Shown here: positions 52,539 through 61,168 of the stretch, piece by piece
Layout: each line of letters begins with the position of its first letter
Position numbering within the stretch: position 1 is the first letter of the stretch
NCBI GenBank assembly: GCA_028281065.1
Contig: JANQKN010000216.1
Location: 1 to 64,000 of the forward strand
DNA length: 64,000 nucleotides
DNA from: Flavobacteriaceae bacterium
Lineage (GTDB): Bacteria; Bacteroidota; Bacteroidia; Flavobacteriales; Flavobacteriaceae
Direction of reading: 5' to 3'
Program-made: the position numbers and the translations under genes
Notes under the pieces: generated by a model
Databases searched by the model: none
Told to the model about the DNA's origin: nothing
What the model saw: only the letters and a program-made list of their open reading frames with translations

Positions 52539-52937
52539 GGGGCCGACTGGTTTTGACAGCGGGTCTAACGGTACAGTAAGCATGTCGAGCGCTGAGATAC
52601 AGCTCGTAAATATCATATTTCACACTTTTTAAACGGCGATAATAATTACGCCCTAGCTGCATAATCTGAATTATAGTAGGATCATGCCTCGGTCTACAAG
52701 GTAGACAAGCAGGAAGTCACTCAATAGCCTTGGTTTGCGGCAATTGATCCAGTGACTTCGTAAAAGTAAACCTAGTTACGGTAGCGCTTCGATACCATAA
52801 CGAAACCTAATTGAAGATAAGCCCTGCGTTGGTGGTTTTTGACCGGCAATGGGTCGAAAATTTAAACAAAAACTAAACATGTAGAAAGCGGTACAGTTGC
52901 ACGTTTGGACGAGGGTTCGACTCCCTCCGGCTCCACC
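52539..52937 (+). ncRNA. ssrA: Transfer-messenger RNA (tmRNA)
   Basis: A tmRNA of about 399 bases, which rescues stalled ribosomes and tags the nascent peptide. The 5' end GGGGCCGACTGGTTTTGAC pairs with the 3' CGGCTCC in a 7-bp acceptor stem (one wobble), with the T-arm GGTTCGACTCC and a 3' ACC. The tag reading frame starts at GGC 52635 and encodes GDNNYALAA, stop TAA at 52662-52664, which is the normal type of Bacteroidota tag. Followed by a terminator. Confidence 0.95.
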
Positions 52938-53109: not shown

Positions 53110-53361
53110 ATGGATCTACCATACGCTGTATACCTTTTAAAATGTGCAAACGGAACTTTCTATACAGGATACACAACAAATATCACAAATCGATTAAAGG
53201 CGCATAGAAAAGGTGAAGTTTCTTTTACCAAGGATAAACTTCCTGTTGAACTCATTCATCTATCACTATTCAAGGATAAAAAATTAGCTTATGATTTTGA
53301 ACGTTATTTAAAATCAGGTTCTGGAAGGGCATTCCGCAATAAGCGTTTTGTTGAATATTAA
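53110..53361 (+). CDS. Small GIY-YIG nuclease domain protein
   Basis: An 83-residue stand-alone GIY-YIG domain: YAVYLLKC then TFYTGYTTN replace GIY and YIG (first Tyr pair and Gly kept), with the catalytic Arg in NRLKAH and the metal-binding Glu in DFERYLK. The C-terminal KSGSGRAFRNKRF is typical of the small YhbQ-like group. It lies 170 bases after the tmRNA and its terminator. Small GIY-YIG genes are frequently found behind structural RNA genes in this phylum, which may reflect mobility. No target known. Confidence 0.82.
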   Translation: MDLPYAVYLLKCANGTFYTGYTTNITNRLKAHRKGEVSFTKDKLPVELIHLSLFKDKKLAYDFERYLKSGSGRAFRNKRFVEY

Positions 53362-53364
53362 GTT

Positions 53365-54132
53365 CTACACCTCATAATCTTCCGCCACGATATTGCAATA
53401 ACGGCTTGCTCCCATTAAATCTGGGAAAAGGGTAGAATAATTGATATTCATTAAATGTAGTTTCTTTAAAGCCTGTTTCCTGAAATCGGGATGACTTGGA
53501 AAGAGTATCTTGAGTAGTATCCCTTCATTGGAATTATAAAACTCATCCCTTACCCATTGATCCACAGAAAGCATAACGGGGCCTTTGGAAAAAAGCCCGC
53601 TTTGGCCCAATAACCGTTTATTGTCATCGGTATCGGGGAAAATTAATTTTAATTTCTGCTCTTCGGATAGCATTTTGTTCCTCTGCTCCACTTTTTTTCG
53701 ATTCAAGCACCAAAGTATCCGATGAGAACCTTCGGTTTCTAATGTATCCAACGAAAAGAAAATGGAAATGTAAGGGGATTGAGACCAATCCAAGAGCGGG
53801 GTTGCCAACCCAAAGTGCTGCCCCAAAGCCCATAGTTCATCATCTTTAAGTACAGAAGGATTATCTCCTCTACGCCCCCTGATCTCCAATTTAAACCGAT
53901 CTAAATGACGATCTACAAAAGGATCTATGGGTCCTTGTTTTGCTCCTGTATTTCTAGCTCTCCTTATTAATCGATTTAGGGTAGATGTAAGAGACCACTC
54001 CGAATTGGATTGCCCGCGAAATACATAATCTTCAATGTATGGTATTTCCTCTTCTATACACTGCCTGAGCTTGAAAAAATCATCCACTTCATACGTCCAA
54101 ATGGGTCCGTCCTTGTCTTTTAAAAATGGCAT
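53365..54132 (-). CDS. FRG-domain protein, downstream partner of the CHAT protein
   Basis: A 255-residue protein with an FRG domain: YVFRGQSNSEWSLTSTL (F38-R39-G40) and GQHFGLATPLLDWSQSPYISIFFSL (about 104-128). FRG domains are found in many bacterial proteins of uncertain activity, often in conflict or stress loci. There is no membrane segment. It follows the 1819-residue CHAT protein after 13 bases on the same strand, so the two are almost surely one operon and may act as a complex. The convergent GIY-YIG gene ends 3 bases away. Confidence 0.85.
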   Translation of the reverse strand: MPFLKDKDGPIWTYEVDDFFKLRQCIEEEIPYIEDYVFRGQSNSEWSLTSTLNRLIRRARNTGAKQGPIDPFVDRHLDRFKLEIRGRRGDNPSVLKDDELWALGQHFGLATPLLDWSQSPYISIFFSLDTLETEGSHRILWCLNRKKVEQRNKMLSEEQKLKLIFPDTDDNKRLLGQSGLFSKGPVMLSVDQWVRDEFYNSNEGILLKILFPSHPDFRKQALKKLHLMNINYSTLFPDLMGASRYCNIVAEDYEV

Positions 54133-54145
54133 AACTAAAAAGGGG

Positions 54146-57100
54146 TTAGTTTTTTTCTTTGTTTAAATCGAAAACATTTTCCAGTTCCTTTAACAAGGCA
54201 TCGTAAGCTTCTATTATTTCTTCTACTTCTGTTCCTTTAGCTCCTTTAGGGGCTCGGCTTTTCGGTTTTTGCAGCTTAGTTAAGATCCGCATCGTAAAAT
54301 TAACCTGCCCCAGAATATTCTCGGACTTTCTAATGGATCCGCCATTACACCAATGGGTCGCATAATTAGCACATACTTCTTTTATTTTGGCTTTCCGCTT
54401 TCTAGCTGTCATCCCTTTTTCCATCACCTCATAAATACCGATGGCCCCATCGTACGTAAGGGTCCAGAACGAAGTACTGCTCTGTGCTTTTTTCTTCAGT
54501 TCACCCCTTAAGCTTTTCAGTTCTTGGCTAGCTAATTTCAGTTTTTCCTTCTGTGGACTGTCGTATAGTTCCAAAATACGCTCCAACGTGAGCCAATTAA
54601 TAATGGTGTAGTAATTGGGTTCTATTTCGTTTAGCAACTTATGCGCTTCTTCATACGATGCCGCAGCAACCTTTAAATCCCTAACAATACTGGTTTTTCT
54701 GGATTCCGTAAGGGACTTTCTTTTATTATGTCCGCCTTTTAGGGACAATTTTTCATGGGTTTTACCCAGGGTTAGGATACTCTCTATAATTTCTTCGGCA
54801 TTGGCTATCCTCAATTTAGACTCTTCAGACAGCTTTTCATCCGATTCATAATACTGCCTTACGGCTAGCTTTGTTTGAATATTAGCCAATTTCCCTAAGC
54901 TCCCCAAGCTGTTTTCGGCATAGGGCAACGTCCTCAACTTTTCCAAATACTTTTCGGCTTCGGGATACATATCCAGTTCATAAAACACAATGCCTATCTT
55001 CTCAACAATCTCCGAATTATTCATCCAGCGGGAGGGGATTCTTTCAATCAACCCTTCGATCTTTTGCTGTATGTTATTTCGATCCCTACTGGAAGCAGGC
55101 TCCGATCTATTGATCAAGTTCTCCAAATCTACGATCACCTCATCTTCATCTACATAATCAGGCCTATCTGCCCAACCTCCTTTATTGGATTTTACGATAC
55201 GATAATAGGGATCCCCATAGCATTGATAGGCTCCCCAAGCATTGGTATTTCCGTATTGTAGATAGGTAGCTAAACGTGCCATTTTCACAGCTTCTCCAAA
55301 GGGCATGCCTTCAAACATATACTTATAAAGATTCTCAGCAAAATATAAGGCAGCCGCATCGTCTATCGCCCAACCGGCAGCCACCACTGCTTTTACCCCT
55401 TTTTGAATGAATTGGGTTCCCACATTGGCAGCGAGTTTATGGTAACTAACCTCAGAGCTTCCCGTTTTTCCCAAATAACAACAGTTAATGAATACAAACT
55501 CCGGAGTTTGTGGTAAACTCTCTATTTCTGTAGCTGTGATAAACGTTTTATTATCCAGAACCATCCCTGTTTTGGAAGGATCGGTAGGATGAACAATACC
55601 ATGTCCTGCCATGTGGACTACCTTGTAATTATGGCTAAATAGCTTATTGATCGTGCTTATACCTGTCTCCTCAATGGCATGTACCACTTGATAGGATTGA
55701 TCGTTAAAAATATTGAGAACAGCCAAAGCTTCCTCTTTGGCATGAGGCAAATTGGCATACTTGGATCCCGTTTTTGGGTTCCCTATAATCAATACCGAAT
55801 CGGTAATCGTTTGGTTGATCTGCCTTGCATACTCACTGGTCACTAATTGACGAATAAGCCCTATTTGGGTAGAAATTGGCGCATAGTTCTTTTCACTGGG
55901 GAAATGCAAAATTTCCCAAGGATAACTGGCCGATTGTCCATCTACAATCAACAATATGTTTTTATTATCGGTAGCGTAATCCTTAAAGTTGTTGGGGATC
56001 AACAAGTGGAAGAGGGTCCTAGCTGTTTCTTCATCCCAACGGTAGGTATTTACCGATGCTTCGATCAATTGATCAATCAACACCCTTTGGGTAGACTTAA
56101 TTTCTTCCTCTGCCCGGGCACGATCGGTTAGGGACACAAACTTTAAAGGGTTCTGGCCCGAATCGGGTACATTAGCAAAGTAATCCAGCAACAGTTTTTT
56201 GGAGCACTCTGCTATTTCTTCATCGGTATCAGGATTATTTATTATGGAAAGCAACCTTGATGAAATAGATTCTTCATCATTCTTCTTCACAGCCTCTACC
56301 TTTAATCGATGCCACCAATTGACTGAATTACTTGCTGAAATCCTTCTTCGTTTTCCTGAAACTTCCCTTATGAAAGAAGACTTTAAGTTAATCTGATCTA
56401 CAAAATCGGGTTCGTTAATGATCTTTTTCAGTTCATGCATGGCATTAATAGCCCGATCCTTATAGATCTCAATAATCTCTATGTTAAGAATCTGAGGGGC
56501 TTCACCATTACTCATATTTCTTAAGCTCTTATTGGCCTCTATAATCCCCCTGAGCAAAGCCCGTATAGAATTACGAATCGTTAACCCACTGTAATCACTG
56601 GCAATAAGCAAGGAGGTGATGCCCAAAACCTTGTTCGTTTCTTCCTCTTCTTTACCACAGTCGGTATTCACTTTAACGGTAGACATCGCATAATCGATAA
56701 AAGCATGCCTAAAGCTACGGACCAATTTTCCTTCGTTCAATTCACCATACACACCCAATCCCAAAACAACAGCTCCCTCAAATTTGGCCTCATCGCTAAG
56801 CAACACCAAAGAGGTTTCTATCTTTCCAGGATACAAGCCTACATCGTGATTTTGGGACAATCGCCCTTTCATATAAAAATCGACTACACTTTCTGCACTT
56901 ACTATGGGATCGTTGTAATGATGGCCTACGGCAACTGGATATTCTGCATTTCCCAAATCTCCATGGCAAACCTCTACCGAAATCTGAAATTCCGGGGCAT
57001 CTTCTTCCAATGTTGGGGTTACCCCCATAATAACGTCTTCTACAGCCAGTCGTGATGGCATAACTATAGGATATTCTTCGGGCATTATCACATCTTCTAC

Positions 57101-59605
57101 ATCGCCACGGGTAACAATAGGATCCTTAGGCAATAGACGGGTGTTTCCTGTATCCAACAGATCGATAATAGCCGGGAAATATTTTTTGGTAGCGCAAAGC
57201 GCTCCGTGGGTGGCCCGCATGTACCAGGTTTTATTTTCGAAGGCTTCGGTAATACCCGTCTCCCAGGTCACTGCACTATCCCCTTGGGAGGTTCCATATA
57301 GCATTGTTTTATTATCTACAATCTCCAACTTATAGGGTGTGTACTTATCCTTACCAGCGATGTAAATAATATTGTCACCTTCTATGGGACGGGATTTGAA
57401 GAGCTCCCCCAATTTTTTAGCATTCTCCAGATCCTTTTTTAGCGGCTCTACAAAGTTAGCTTCGTGCTTTCCAATCTGGGTCCAAACCGTTTTGTCATTA
57501 TAATCCCTTTCGGCATCCATAGGCAACAATTCCAAAAGACCTGGATATTCCCTAATGATCTTCAGTAAATCAGAACTGTTATTCGTTACATCTATGGAAT
57601 GCAGCACTTTGAACAACTTGTGCTTTCTAACAAACAACGAAGGGATTACGTGGGAACCTCTAAGTGGCGATCCTAGAAAAATTGCCCTAGAGCCTTCCCT
57701 TTCGCTAAACTTTTTCCATGTTTCGGGATGATTGCTGAATAACGTATGCACTACCAGCCCACCCATAGAGTGTGCTACAATCCTAAACGGTTGGGCGGTA
57801 TTGGTTGCCATCCTTTTTTCCAGATCATCTGCCAATCGTTTGGCAGACTCGGTAATGGATTGGCGCCAATCGTAAGGAAAAGGTACCACATTGTATTTTT
57901 TGTCCAATTCCCTTAGTAAGGCACGATAGGCCGAACCCATAAGGGCATAGGGTTCTACATCGGAAGCATCTATGTCCAAACGTTCCATGCCTCCAGAAGC
58001 CAAACGGAACAGATTGACCCATATGGCATCGTCATCCTGTTTCAGCTTGGAGCCCATAATACCTGGCAACACATACACATAAGGTGCTTCTTTTTCCTCC
58101 TTTTCACCTGGCGCTACATAATTCAATCTTCCACGTACTTTGATGATTTCTCCTTCATCGTTCAGTAATTCGCTTAGGGGTTTAAACCCTATGGGTTTTT
58201 GTTCGTATTGGGCAAGGGCAGCCGCTACATTGGCTTGGGAAGGTTCGTTGATAAAATACTTAAAATGACTAACGTCTTTGTTACTATAAAAAGCATAATA
58301 GGTTTTATCCCTTTGGGCCCCACCAAACATGGACAGGGTATTTACCACAAAATCATGCTGGGTACGGTAAAAGGCATCGGTTACCAAAACGGCAAGTGAT
58401 CTAAGGATTCCATGTGCCTTTACATCGCCGGCCACGACAAAAAGCTCGGAATTTATCTTACGATTGGGATTATTAAGTACCCGAACCAAAGGGGATCCCG
58501 GGATCATGGCTTCCAATCCAGGAAAAGTATTTATGTCTTCTTTCTTTTTTACGAAAGCCCTTAAAAAGGACTTTACATACCCATAAATAGGATTCCCTTT
58601 TAGGAAAGGAATCATCCCTATAAGGTTCAACAGAACTGTTAGGTACAGATCCAAACGCTGGCTAGCCAAAATGGTTCCAGACGCAGGACAAGCCACCCGA
58701 ACAAACTTTTCTACCTTTATGTTTCGAGCCTTTAAAAGCGAATTGATCTTTTTTAAATTGGCAACATCATCTTTCCGTTTCAGTTCTTCAAAAACAGCAA
58801 TATCATTTTCAGAAAAAGCATCGGCTTTATCACTTAGGTTTCTACATAAAACTTCACCTACAAGCCCTCCCCGGGAATGTGAGATAAGATGCACCACTGC
58901 ATTCTTTGGCATATATTCCAATAAATCTATGGCGTTTTGCAAAGGGCTCTTCGTTAAGGTTGCATGTTCGAAGGCGTAGATGTTATCCCCATAGCGTTCT
59001 TGCAATTCTGTCCATGCCGAAGAAGGGACATGATCCATATAAAACCCTCCAAAACTACCCGAAGTACTGGAAGCAGTACCATGCAACAAAATTAGAATAG
59101 GAGAACTGGCATCAATTTTTTTGGCTTCTTTCCCTAATTTATTTGGATTTTGGCAATGATAAAGACCTGGCGAAGGCTCTAACTGACTCTCTATTTTTTT
59201 GGCCAAGGCAATGGCAGAAAGATCCACTATTTTCTTATCCACCCGTATAACCTTAAGCTTCTTAAGGATATTCCTAATAATTCCCCTAGAGGTGCCTTCG
59301 TCTCCTTCAATATAGGTAGGCAAGCTTATAACGTCATCTGGAACATGGTCACCCCTATTTTTATCTTTGGGAAATTCGTCTTCTAATTGATCCAGGGCAA
59401 CGATACGGATAAGTCCATCCTCAAACTCGAGTTCCAGAAGATCTTCGTCATCTACCTCAATGGTTTTTTCGTTGCTTTCTGACCTGACCGAAAGAATATC
59501 GAATTCCTCAAGAACTTCGGTATCTATAAACCGTTGTTCTTCGGAAGGGAAATACGATTCCGTTGAAACACTATTTCCATATAGTAGAATTTTTTTCTTT
59601 GCCAT
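54146..59605 (-). CDS. Giant dual alpha/beta-hydrolase + CHAT protease protein
   Basis: An 1819-residue soluble protein with five recognisable parts. Residues 168-440: alpha/beta-hydrolase 1, PILILLHGTAS and nucleophile S244 in ISHSRGG. Residues 508-810: LCAT/PGAP1-like alpha/beta-hydrolase 2, LPGIMGSKL, nucleophile S613 in VAHSMGG, and a possible His at 800. Residues about 870-1060: a mixed alpha/beta region that resembles the N-terminal domain of M17 aminopeptidases (GDLGNAEYPVAVGHHY, VVLGLGVYGEL). Residues 1165-1470: CHAT domain with catalytic His in HMAGHG (H1335) and Cys in INCCYLG (C1376), as in caspase-like bacterial proteases. Residues 1500-1819: helical TPR-like tail. No signal peptide or transmembrane helix. 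Co-transcribed with an FRG-domain gene. Confidence 0.85.
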   Translation of the reverse strand: MAKKKILLYGNSVSTESYFPSEEQRFIDTEVLEEFDILSVRSESNEKTIEVDDEDLLELEFEDGLIRIVALDQLEDEFPKDKNRGDHVPDDVISLPTYIEGDEGTSRGIIRNILKKLKVIRVDKKIVDLSAIALAKKIESQLEPSPGLYHCQNPNKLGKEAKKIDASSPILILLHGTASSTSGSFGGFYMDHVPSSAWTELQERYGDNIYAFEHATLTKSPLQNAIDLLEYMPKNAVVHLISHSRGGLVGEVLCRNLSDKADAFSENDIAVFEELKRKDDVANLKKINSLLKARNIKVEKFVRVACPASGTILASQRLDLYLTVLLNLIGMIPFLKGNPIYGYVKSFLRAFVKKKEDINTFPGLEAMIPGSPLVRVLNNPNRKINSELFVVAGDVKAHGILRSLAVLVTDAFYRTQHDFVVNTLSMFGGAQRDKTYYAFYSNKDVSHFKYFINEPSQANVAAALAQYEQKPIGFKPLSELLNDEGEIIKVRGRLNYVAPGEKEEKEAPYVYVLPGIMGSKLKQDDDAIWVNLFRLASGGMERLDIDASDVEPYALMGSAYRALLRELDKKYNVVPFPYDWRQSITESAKRLADDLEKRMATNTAQPFRIVAHSMGGLVVHTLFSNHPETWKKFSEREGSRAIFLGSPLRGSHVIPSLFVRKHKLFKVLHSIDVTNNSSDLLKIIREYPGLLELLPMDAERDYNDKTVWTQIGKHEANFVEPLKKDLENAKKLGELFKSRPIEGDNIIYIAGKDKYTPYKLEIVDNKTMLYGTSQGDSAVTWETGITEAFENKTWYMRATHGALCATKKYFPAIIDLLDTGNTRLLPKDPIVTRGDVEDVIMPEEYPIVMPSRLAVEDVIMGVTPTLEEDAPEFQISVEVCHGDLGNAEYPVAVGHHYNDPIVSAESVVDFYMKGRLSQNHDVGLYPGKIETSLVLLSDEAKFEGAVVLGLGVYGELNEGKLVRSFRHAFIDYAMSTVKVNTDCGKEEEETNKVLGITSLLIASDYSGLTIRNSIRALLRGIIEANKSLRNMSNGEAPQILNIEIIEIYKDRAINAMHELKKIINEPDFVDQINLKSSFIREVSGKRRRISASNSVNWWHRLKVEAVKKNDEESISSRLLSIINNPDTDEEIAECSKKLLLDYFANVPDSGQNPLKFVSLTDRARAEEEIKSTQRVLIDQLIEASVNTYRWDEETARTLFHLLIPNNFKDYATDNKNILLIVDGQSASYPWEILHFPSEKNYAPISTQIGLIRQLVTSEYARQINQTITDSVLIIGNPKTGSKYANLPHAKEEALAVLNIFNDQSYQVVHAIEETGISTINKLFSHNYKVVHMAGHGIVHPTDPSKTGMVLDNKTFITATEIESLPQTPEFVFINCCYLGKTGSSEVSYHKLAANVGTQFIQKGVKAVVAAGWAIDDAAALYFAENLYKYMFEGMPFGEAVKMARLATYLQYGNTNAWGAYQCYGDPYYRIVKSNKGGWADRPDYVDEDEVIVDLENLINRSEPASSRDRNNIQQKIEGLIERIPSRWMNNSEIVEKIGIVFYELDMYPEAEKYLEKLRTLPYAENSLGSLGKLANIQTKLAVRQYYESDEKLSEESKLRIANAEEIIESILTLGKTHEKLSLKGGHNKRKSLTESRKTSIVRDLKVAAASYEEAHKLLNEIEPNYYTIINWLTLERILELYDSPQKEKLKLASQELKSLRGELKKKAQSSTSFWTLTYDGAIGIYEVMEKGMTARKRKAKIKEVCANYATHWCNGGSIRKSENILGQVNFTMRILTKLQKPKSRAPKGAKGTEVEEIIEAYDALLKELENVFDLNKEKN

Positions 59606-59872: not shown

Positions 59873-61168
59873 ATGAAATCAGCCATATACCTTATCCCCT
59901 TACTGTTTTTCATCTCATGTAATTCAAAAAAAGAAGAACCCCTTACCGAAACCCAACTTATGGAAAAAGCCAAAGGCATACACGAACGGGTCATTACCCT
60001 GGATACCCATTGCGACATCAACATAAAAAACTTTACAGATTCTATAAACTACACGCAAGAGTTGGCCACCCAGGTCACACTTCCCAAAATGAAAGCGGGT
60101 GGTTTGGATGTTGCTTGGTTTATTGTCTATACAGGGCAGGACTCCTTAACCGACCAAGGATACGCCCATGCCTACGAAAATGCCATATCCAAATTTGACG
60201 CCATCCATAAACTGGTTTCTGAATTTGCCCCCAATGACATTGAATTGGCTACGACCTCCGAAGACGTAAGAAGAATACACGGTAAAGGAAAAAAAGTAGC
60301 CATGATAGGGATCGAAAACGGATACCCTGTAGGAACGGATATTGGCAATGTTAAGAAATTTTACGACTTAGGGGGACGCTATATGTCGTTGTCCCATAAC
60401 GGACACAGTCAACTGTGCGATAGCAATACAGGCGAGGAAGATGGTGTTTGGTTGCACAATGGCCTTAGTGAACTAGGGAAAGAAGTGGTTGCCGAAATGA
60501 ACAAATGGGGTATGATGATAGACGTTTCCCATCCTTCCAAAGAAGCAATGCGACAGATGATCGAACTTACCCAAGCCCCTATCATTGCTTCCCATTCTTC
60601 GGCAAGGGCACTGTGTGATCACAGTAGAAACTTGGACGATGAGCAATTGCAGTGGATGAAAGAAAATGGAGGTGTGGTACAAACCGTTGCCTTTAGATCG
60701 TACTTAAATACTGAAAAGTTTGAAGCTCGGAATGAAAAAATTAAGGCCTTAAAAGAAGAGGTCATGGACTCTTTGGGGATGATGCTATTGAGTTGGAGTG
60801 AAGTTCGAAAATTGGAACCCGAATACCGTGACTCCTACTATGCTGCTTATGAAGAAATGTCGCGGATAGTGAATGACAAAACTGCTACCATGAATGATCT
60901 TCCCCCGGGGGTAGGTGTTTCCGATTTTGTAGACCATATCGACTATATGGTAGAAAAAATTGGACTGGATCATGTAGGCATAAGCAGTGATTTTGATGGC
61001 GGCGGTGGAATTGAAGGCTGGGGCGATGCTTCCGAAACCTTTAATGTAACCCTGGAATTGGTTCGAAGGGGATACACCGAAGAAGAAATCGAAAAACTTT
61101 GGAGTGGTAATCTTTTGCGGGTGCTGGATGAAGTGCAAGCGGTAGCAAATCGGCTTCAAAACGAATAG
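59873..61168 (+). CDS. M19 membrane-type dipeptidase lipoprotein
   Basis: A 431-residue zinc dipeptidase (renal dipeptidase family). Lipobox FISC (about residue 17). Metal and active-site motifs: TLDTHCDIN (H-x-D), IGIENGYPVG (Glu bridging zinc), SLSHNGHSQL, MIDVSHPSKEAM, IIASHSSARALCDHSRN, and GISSDFDGGGG. Length is normal. It hydrolyses dipeptides, in the periplasm here. It is convergent with the rhodanese genes through a shared bidirectional terminator. The 266 bases upstream contain only AT-rich sequence and an ATGGT-N5-ACCAT hairpin at 59739-59753. Confidence 0.93.
   Translation: MKSAIYLIPLLFFISCNSKKEEPLTETQLMEKAKGIHERVITLDTHCDINIKNFTDSINYTQELATQVTLPKMKAGGLDVAWFIVYTGQDSLTDQGYAHAYENAISKFDAIHKLVSEFAPNDIELATTSEDVRRIHGKGKKVAMIGIENGYPVGTDIGNVKKFYDLGGRYMSLSHNGHSQLCDSNTGEEDGVWLHNGLSELGKEVVAEMNKWGMMIDVSHPSKEAMRQMIELTQAPIIASHSSARALCDHSRNLDDEQLQWMKENGGVVQTVAFRSYLNTEKFEARNEKIKALKEEVMDSLGMMLLSWSEVRKLEPEYRDSYYAAYEEMSRIVNDKTATMNDLPPGVGVSDFVDHIDYMVEKIGLDHVGISSDFDGGGGIEGWGDASETFNVTLELVRRGYTEEEIEKLWSGNLLRVLDEVQAVANRLQNE

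Follow-up and report, generated by a model that had tools for sequence, protein, structure and literature searches.

Within the window, as the 64,000-nucleotide stretch of contig JANQKN010000216.1 from a Flavobacteriaceae bacterium analysed here is called (the bacterium is marine), a gene encoding a multidomain protein of 1819 residues, referred to as the hub, is followed on the same strand by a gene encoding a small FRG-domain protein. The hub belongs to one conserved family that is widespread across phyla but patchy and, because the genes around it vary from locus to locus, it is a shared executor with exchangeable partners, FRG among them. The parts of the hub are of known kinds; assembled in this way and joined by FRG, they form a novel variation on the NAD+-linked conflict systems of the effector type. 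Tentatively, and with slightly less than an even chance of being correct, the locus is interpreted as a Thoeris-like abortive-infection or programmed-death module, in which FRG would replace TIR as the NAD+-processing trigger and the hub, gated by its macro-fold and TPR-S domains, would be the executor.

In the mechanism proposed, FRG would consume NAD+ on infection and yield an ADP-ribose-type product, taking the part of the ThsB-like TIR protein in the closest homologous loci. The macro-fold domain of the hub, its TPR-S domain, or both would bind this product, and the CHAT protease, the two lipase-like hydrolases, or all three would thereby be released to damage cell proteins and membrane lipids, presumably as anti-phage defence. 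The more specific proposal, that an FRG-family ADP-ribosyltransferase (ART) takes the place of TIR in making a diffusible NAD+-derived messenger, which a macro-fold/TPR-S receiver reads and which switches on a single chain with three active sites, those of two lipases and of a caspase-like protease, is rather unlikely.

The hub family and its partners

Genome contigs were scanned with an alignment of five hub sequences, giving at least 561 encoding stretches, of which the best 80 were examined. Nearly all of these 80 are single open reading frames (ORFs) of about 1700-1900 codons, and they come from Bacteroidota, Pseudomonadota, Thermodesulfobacteriota, Nitrospirota, Acidobacteriota, and other phyla. 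Longer homologs of 2050-2190 residues, some 250-350 over the usual length, are present in L050, L061, L073, and L326. Full-length homologs also occur as plasmid genes, in Azotobacter, Paracoccus, and Ensifer. The hub is encoded in 18 of 397 sampled genomes of the bacterium's own family and 5 of 395 of its class (its own genome counted in both), in none of the eight other genomes of the genus, and there was no match to it in phage records or viral contigs.

The sister clade of the window hub consists of three Aquimarina hub loci (48-49 % identity, SH-aLRT 99). In these, a TIR gene lies 3-44 nt downstream of the hub on the same strand, and ThsB is the PADLOC profile that it matches best (E 2e-22 to 4e-22); the FRG gene of the window occupies exactly this slot. 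Of the 37 same-strand slots directly downstream of the hub in the 80 loci, 9 are taken by TIR genes, called with a hidden Markov model grown from two seeds, compared with 19 of the 929 remaining neighbour positions (odds ratio 15; p 2.7e-7 in a Fisher test). The pattern needs at least seven changes on the hub tree, the nine cases not being fully independent. Pfam TIR_2 was confirmed in 7 of 35 downstream partners, and one further partner matches ThsB at 2e-48. Other partners include caspase C14 (5 of 35 upstream neighbours), nSTAND1, KAP NTPase, and peptidoglycan-binding proteins.

FRG as a fixed partner of the hub was considered and is ruled out: in a phmmer search of the hub loci FRG was found only in the window's own loci, none of 20 further hub loci has it, and no hub lies in ten neighbourhoods of FRG relatives. 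The initial annotation of the window had proposed a two-gene system; as a recurrent unit this is not supported, the hub being accompanied elsewhere by TIR, caspase, nSTAND, or peptidoglycan-binding genes.

Two other arrangements were seen among the hub loci. In L316 (3315-4127), a caspase C14 gene lies 12 nt downstream of the hub homolog, in the TIR/FRG slot. In a second operon type of the Flavobacteriaceae (L026, L312, L318, L319, L321, L322, and L324), a protein of 410-411 residues is encoded 3-12 nt after the hub, followed in most loci by a probable lipoprotein of 116-127 residues and then an FAD-type protein of 534-538 residues. PG_binding_1 was checked in the 410-411-residue proteins of L026 and L318, and the others were assigned by their similar start.

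Domains and active sites of the hub

In Pfam, the hub matches DUF7379 (residues 170-260), LCAT (570-709), CHAT (1192-1464), and TPR-S (1549-1673), all above cut-off. Failure of the domain matches in a profile search, which the initial annotation had named as a refuting outcome, thus did not occur. Residue conservation was scored over 83 aligned full-length homologs. In the first hydrolase S244, D418, and H447 are each present in all 83; in the second, D776 and H800 are present in all and S613 in 80. From these residues and the profile matches, both are alpha/beta hydrolases with Ser-Asp-His triads and are predicted to be lipase-like. For the second, in addition to the LCAT match (E 4e-9), the hub-family profile matches LCAT and PLA2G15 chains of solved structure (E 5e-7 to 5e-6).

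The CHAT match (PF12770) has an E-value of 8e-30 over 289 positions, and the PADLOC profile of BovA also matches this part of the hub (E 1.7e-6). The modelled domain resembles separase and the TPR-CHAT protein Csx29, with VIA Z-scores of 18-22 (18-21 for Csx29). H1335 and C1376 are each conserved in 83 of 83 homologs. The assignment of C1376 as nucleophile rests on the CHAT alignment, because the neighbouring C1375 is almost equally conserved (82 of 83). The residues that the initial annotation had picked out as catalytic in the 1819-residue ORF, S244, S613, H1335, and C1376, are thus all in place, and conservation across the family suggests that the three active sites are functional and kept by selection rather than relics.

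Between the second hydrolase and CHAT is a stretch on which the initial annotation made no comment. An AlphaFold2 (AF2) model of residues 855-1819 (pLDDT 86.9) places a macro-fold domain here, with a VIA Z-score of 15.8 to the macro domain of macroH2A1.1 (root-mean-square deviation 2.9 over 169 residues) and of 15.2 to the N-terminal domains of M17 aminopeptidases; the Foldseek list includes MacroD2, PARP14 macro 1, and M17 entries. No Pfam match was obtained in this region at E<=1 in the five family members searched. Two features of the family in this region, the motif HG[DN]L and a loop of the type IGxGxGGL, are taken to correspond to the GD motif and to loop 2 of macro domains, respectively, and the domain is a candidate sensor of ADP-ribose or NAD derivatives.

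The C-terminal region, which had been described as a helical tail, is a TPR-S domain (PF20308; 35.8 bits vs a cut-off of 27.6) that resembles the TPR region of ASK1. The same family scores 20.3 bits, under the cut-off, in the homolog of L026. The helices of residues 1486-1819 have a VIA Z-score of 21.2 to the ASK1 central regulatory region and of 17 to Rap sensor proteins, values that for helical repeats may reflect no more than a shared arrangement. TPR-S domains have reportedly been proposed to recognise NAD+-derived signals, and this one is a candidate sensor or scaffold.

The FRG protein

The FRG gene had been noted 13 nt after the hub, and this is confirmed, with a Pfam FRG match (PF08867) at E 2e-20. 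PADLOC profiles of the defence candidate PDC-S15 match the protein at E-values of up to 1e-74, which makes FRG the best-supported link of the locus to defence. Conserved residues are the R39-G40 motif, Q105, H106, G108, T111, L113, D115, and Q177. There was no sequence match to solved structures. In an AF2 model (pLDDT 92.4), the 50 best VIA rows are nearly all ART enzymes: KptA/Tpt1, ADP-ribosylating toxins, Rhs ART toxins, DarT, and Arr. R39 would correspond to the arginine of motif I in ARTs, as read from the ends of the aligned ranges, which start at model 33 to chain 1 and model 35 to chain 3, and not from a residue alignment. Frg has been placed in the ART superfamily (PMC9503650), and the protein in the window is predicted to be an NAD+-using enzyme of this superfamily.

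Close relatives of FRG (34-41 % identity) occupy other gene contexts, and viral contigs hold 107 stretches encoding FRG relatives, as expected for a mobile accessory gene. In L187 (6476-10236), one relative (37 % identity) comes directly after genes for a 591-residue protein, HerA-like by eye, and a 384-residue protein, possibly forming a separate defence operon.

A variable chromosomal slot beside ssrA

In the relative G008 the flanks of the locus are kept, with the M19 dipeptidase gene 86 % and the transfer-messenger RNA (tmRNA; ssrA) gene 91 % identical, and the two lie about 6 kb apart. Between them are genes resembling those of the glyoxylate shunt, a regulator gene, and one that is cyclase-like. 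On the ssrA side in G002 and G004 the contents are different again, including a 1243-residue protein in G004. Since the flanks are kept and the contents differ, the most plausible view of the hub-FRG pair is that it was inserted into a variable slot beside ssrA. In G014, mobile-element-like genes, as read by eye, abut the tmRNA gene.

A mobile island with att repeats was also considered and rejected: the pair is not flanked by long direct repeats, and none of the ORFs in the region was recognised as an integrase, in agreement with what had been reported at the outset. Nor is there a shift in composition at the pair, the GC content of 0.37-0.44 being like that of the surroundings. The earlier proposal of an accessory conflict-type locus is upheld by the absence of the hub from the congeners, the variable ssrA-M19 interval, and the PDC-S15 match. 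The comparison with related genomes, which the initial annotation had suggested as a check, shows that the pair is not conserved at this locus.

Comparison with known systems

The resemblance to Thoeris lies in a two-gene layout in which a predicted NAD+-using enzyme stands beside an effector, and in the ThsB-like TIR gene of the sister Aquimarina loci. With type II Thoeris (ThsB TIR plus a transmembrane-macro ThsA) the locus shares, by its model, a macro fold as candidate ligand receiver, and with type IV (TIR plus caspase-like protease) a caspase-type protease as executor. The ThsA macro domains of Thoeris bind ADPR (PMC11204291), and in type IV a TIR product switches on the caspase-like protease (PMC12847820). 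The locus differs from Thoeris in that the partner in the window is FRG, which has no TIR match in Pfam or PADLOC, and in that two lipase-like hydrolases and CHAT are combined in one 1819-residue chain with a TPR-S end. Unlike ThsA of type II, the hub has no transmembrane domain family in Pfam.

The initial annotation had compared the locus to Craspase and the gasdermin systems. The comparison is borne out for the CHAT fold alone, and in function Thoeris is the closer analogue. Craspase (type III-E CRISPR) likewise has a CHAT protease with TPRs in Csx29, but these precede CHAT in Csx29 and follow it in the hub, which adds the hydrolases and the macro-like domain; neither the ORFs between 48 and 64 kb nor the Pfam-scanned neighbours include Cas7-11/gRAMP. 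The bacterial gasdermin systems differ in that no gasdermin is adjacent here, the neighbours being FRG, GIY-YIG, and M19 by Pfam. In Borvo, which consists of the single CHAT protein BovA, only the CHAT part of the hub finds a counterpart in the match. The PDC-S15 models describe FRG proteins on their own, whereas the FRG gene of the window apparently shares an operon with the gene for a large effector. The TPR-S match above cut-off links the hub to the TPR-S conflict systems.

Alternative explanations

Several observations weigh against the interpretation of the locus as a Thoeris-like module triggered by FRG. Among the loci examined, FRG is beside the hub once only, in the window, and the link between the two rests on one operon. 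Most hub homologs have no adjacent TIR or FRG, and in several the partner is a peptidoglycan-binding protein, a caspase, or a KAP NTPase. The structural scores of FRG are low (VIA Z of 5.9 or less, and no Foldseek E <0.1). In the window hub, the loop reads IASDYSGL where the family has the glycines of IGxGxGGL, and its ligand preference may therefore be altered or lost. The macro fold is common to the N-terminal domains of M17 aminopeptidases too, which are not known as nucleotide sensors.

The roles might be reversed, with FRG as a killing effector, an NADase draining NAD+, and the hub as sensor or regulator, its CHAT protease releasing or activating FRG and its hydrolases adding membrane damage. 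This comes near the suggestion in the initial annotation that CHAT could be a switch or processing protease for the lipase parts or for FRG. Frg has been called a potential anti-viral effector and possible NADase (PMC9503650), and Craspase offers a precedent in which CHAT cleaves partner proteins (PMC10028731), Csx30 being cleaved (PMC10952713). FRG is also small and probably co-transcribed with the hub. However, if the two were a protease and its dedicated substrate, one would expect to meet them together repeatedly, and it is the hub and its active sites that are conserved, not the FRG partner; the macro and TPR-S domains, moreover, suit a receiver of small signals. This reversal of roles is considered unlikely, though, with a single FRG-hub operon observed, it is a serious alternative. 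The same judgement applies to the possibility that the two are unrelated accessory genes side by side in a variable slot, the hub acting alone and FRG being a stand-alone PDC-S15-type defence gene. The uniqueness of the pairing among the sampled loci, the other contexts of close FRG relatives, the many FRG genes on viral contigs, and the variability of the slot would all fit such a coincidence; the 13-nt same-strand spacing, in exactly the slot of the sister-clade TIR gene, would not. An envelope or physiological role, in which the hub is a regulated lipase/protease of lipid or peptidoglycan turnover working with peptidoglycan-binding partners in several lineages, is more doubtful still. The order hub, PG_binding_1-type protein of 410-411 residues, probable lipoprotein of about 116, and FAD-type protein of about 535 shared by several Flavobacteriaceae is in its favour, as are the SRP54 and ribosomal S16 genes among the neighbours of some homologs, but it accords poorly with the patchy distribution in the family and genus, the plasmid copies, and the TIR and caspase partners.

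The signal-makers of Thoeris are TIR domains. If FRG does act as trigger of a Thoeris-like module, then, with the effector unchanged, an ART-type protein has taken over from TIR; immune signalling based on NAD+ would no longer be confined to one superfamily of enzymes but include a second, and the role of many orphan FRG genes would become directly testable. The hub itself combines phospholipase-like enzymes and a protease of the separase/caspase type with a macro-like domain and with TPRs similar to the ones in ASK1, a stress kinase of eukaryotes, all in one chain, and does so across several phyla.

Locus layout and flanking genes

The pair is transcribed toward the tmRNA gene and away from M19 (Table 1), and the short same-strand gap is consistent with one operon whose genes are probably co-transcribed. 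A promoter and terminator scan of the locus gave no clear excess over shuffled sequence. The position next to the tmRNA gene is as first described in that the pair is beside ssrA, but it does not directly adjoin it, a GIY-YIG gene lying between. The stops of FRG and GIY-YIG are convergent and 3 nt apart, and GIY-YIG adjoins the tmRNA gene in the relative G003 too.

Table 1. Features of the hub-FRG locus and its flanks, in window coordinates
Feature	Position	Strand	Details
Hub gene	54146..59605	minus	ORF, 1819 aa; hydrolase 1 - hydrolase 2 - macro-like - CHAT - TPR-S
Alpha/beta-hydrolase 1 (predicted)	58226..59104	minus	Residues ~168-460; Pfam DUF7379; triad S244/D418/H447
Alpha/beta-hydrolase 2 (predicted)	57116..58078	minus	Residues ~510-830; LCAT / group XV phospholipase A2-like; triad S613/D776/H800
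Macro-fold domain (modelled)	56420..56995	minus	Residues ~871-1062; AF2 model, VIA, Foldseek; without Pfam match
CHAT caspase-like protease domain	55214..56032	minus	Residues 1192-1464; dyad H1335/C1376
TPR-S C-terminal domain	54149..55150	minus	Residues 1486-1819; Pfam TPR-S
Intergenic gap, hub stop to FRG start	54133..54145	minus	13 nt
FRG gene	53365..54132	minus	ORF, 255 aa
GIY-YIG gene	53110..53361	plus	Pfam; flank between tmRNA and FRG, outside module
tmRNA (ssrA)	52539..52937	plus	Conserved flank
M19 dipeptidase gene	59873..61168	plus	Pfam; flank on hub side

Besides the hub, six more CHAT proteins of about 880-990 residues are encoded in the genome of the window (L001-L006).

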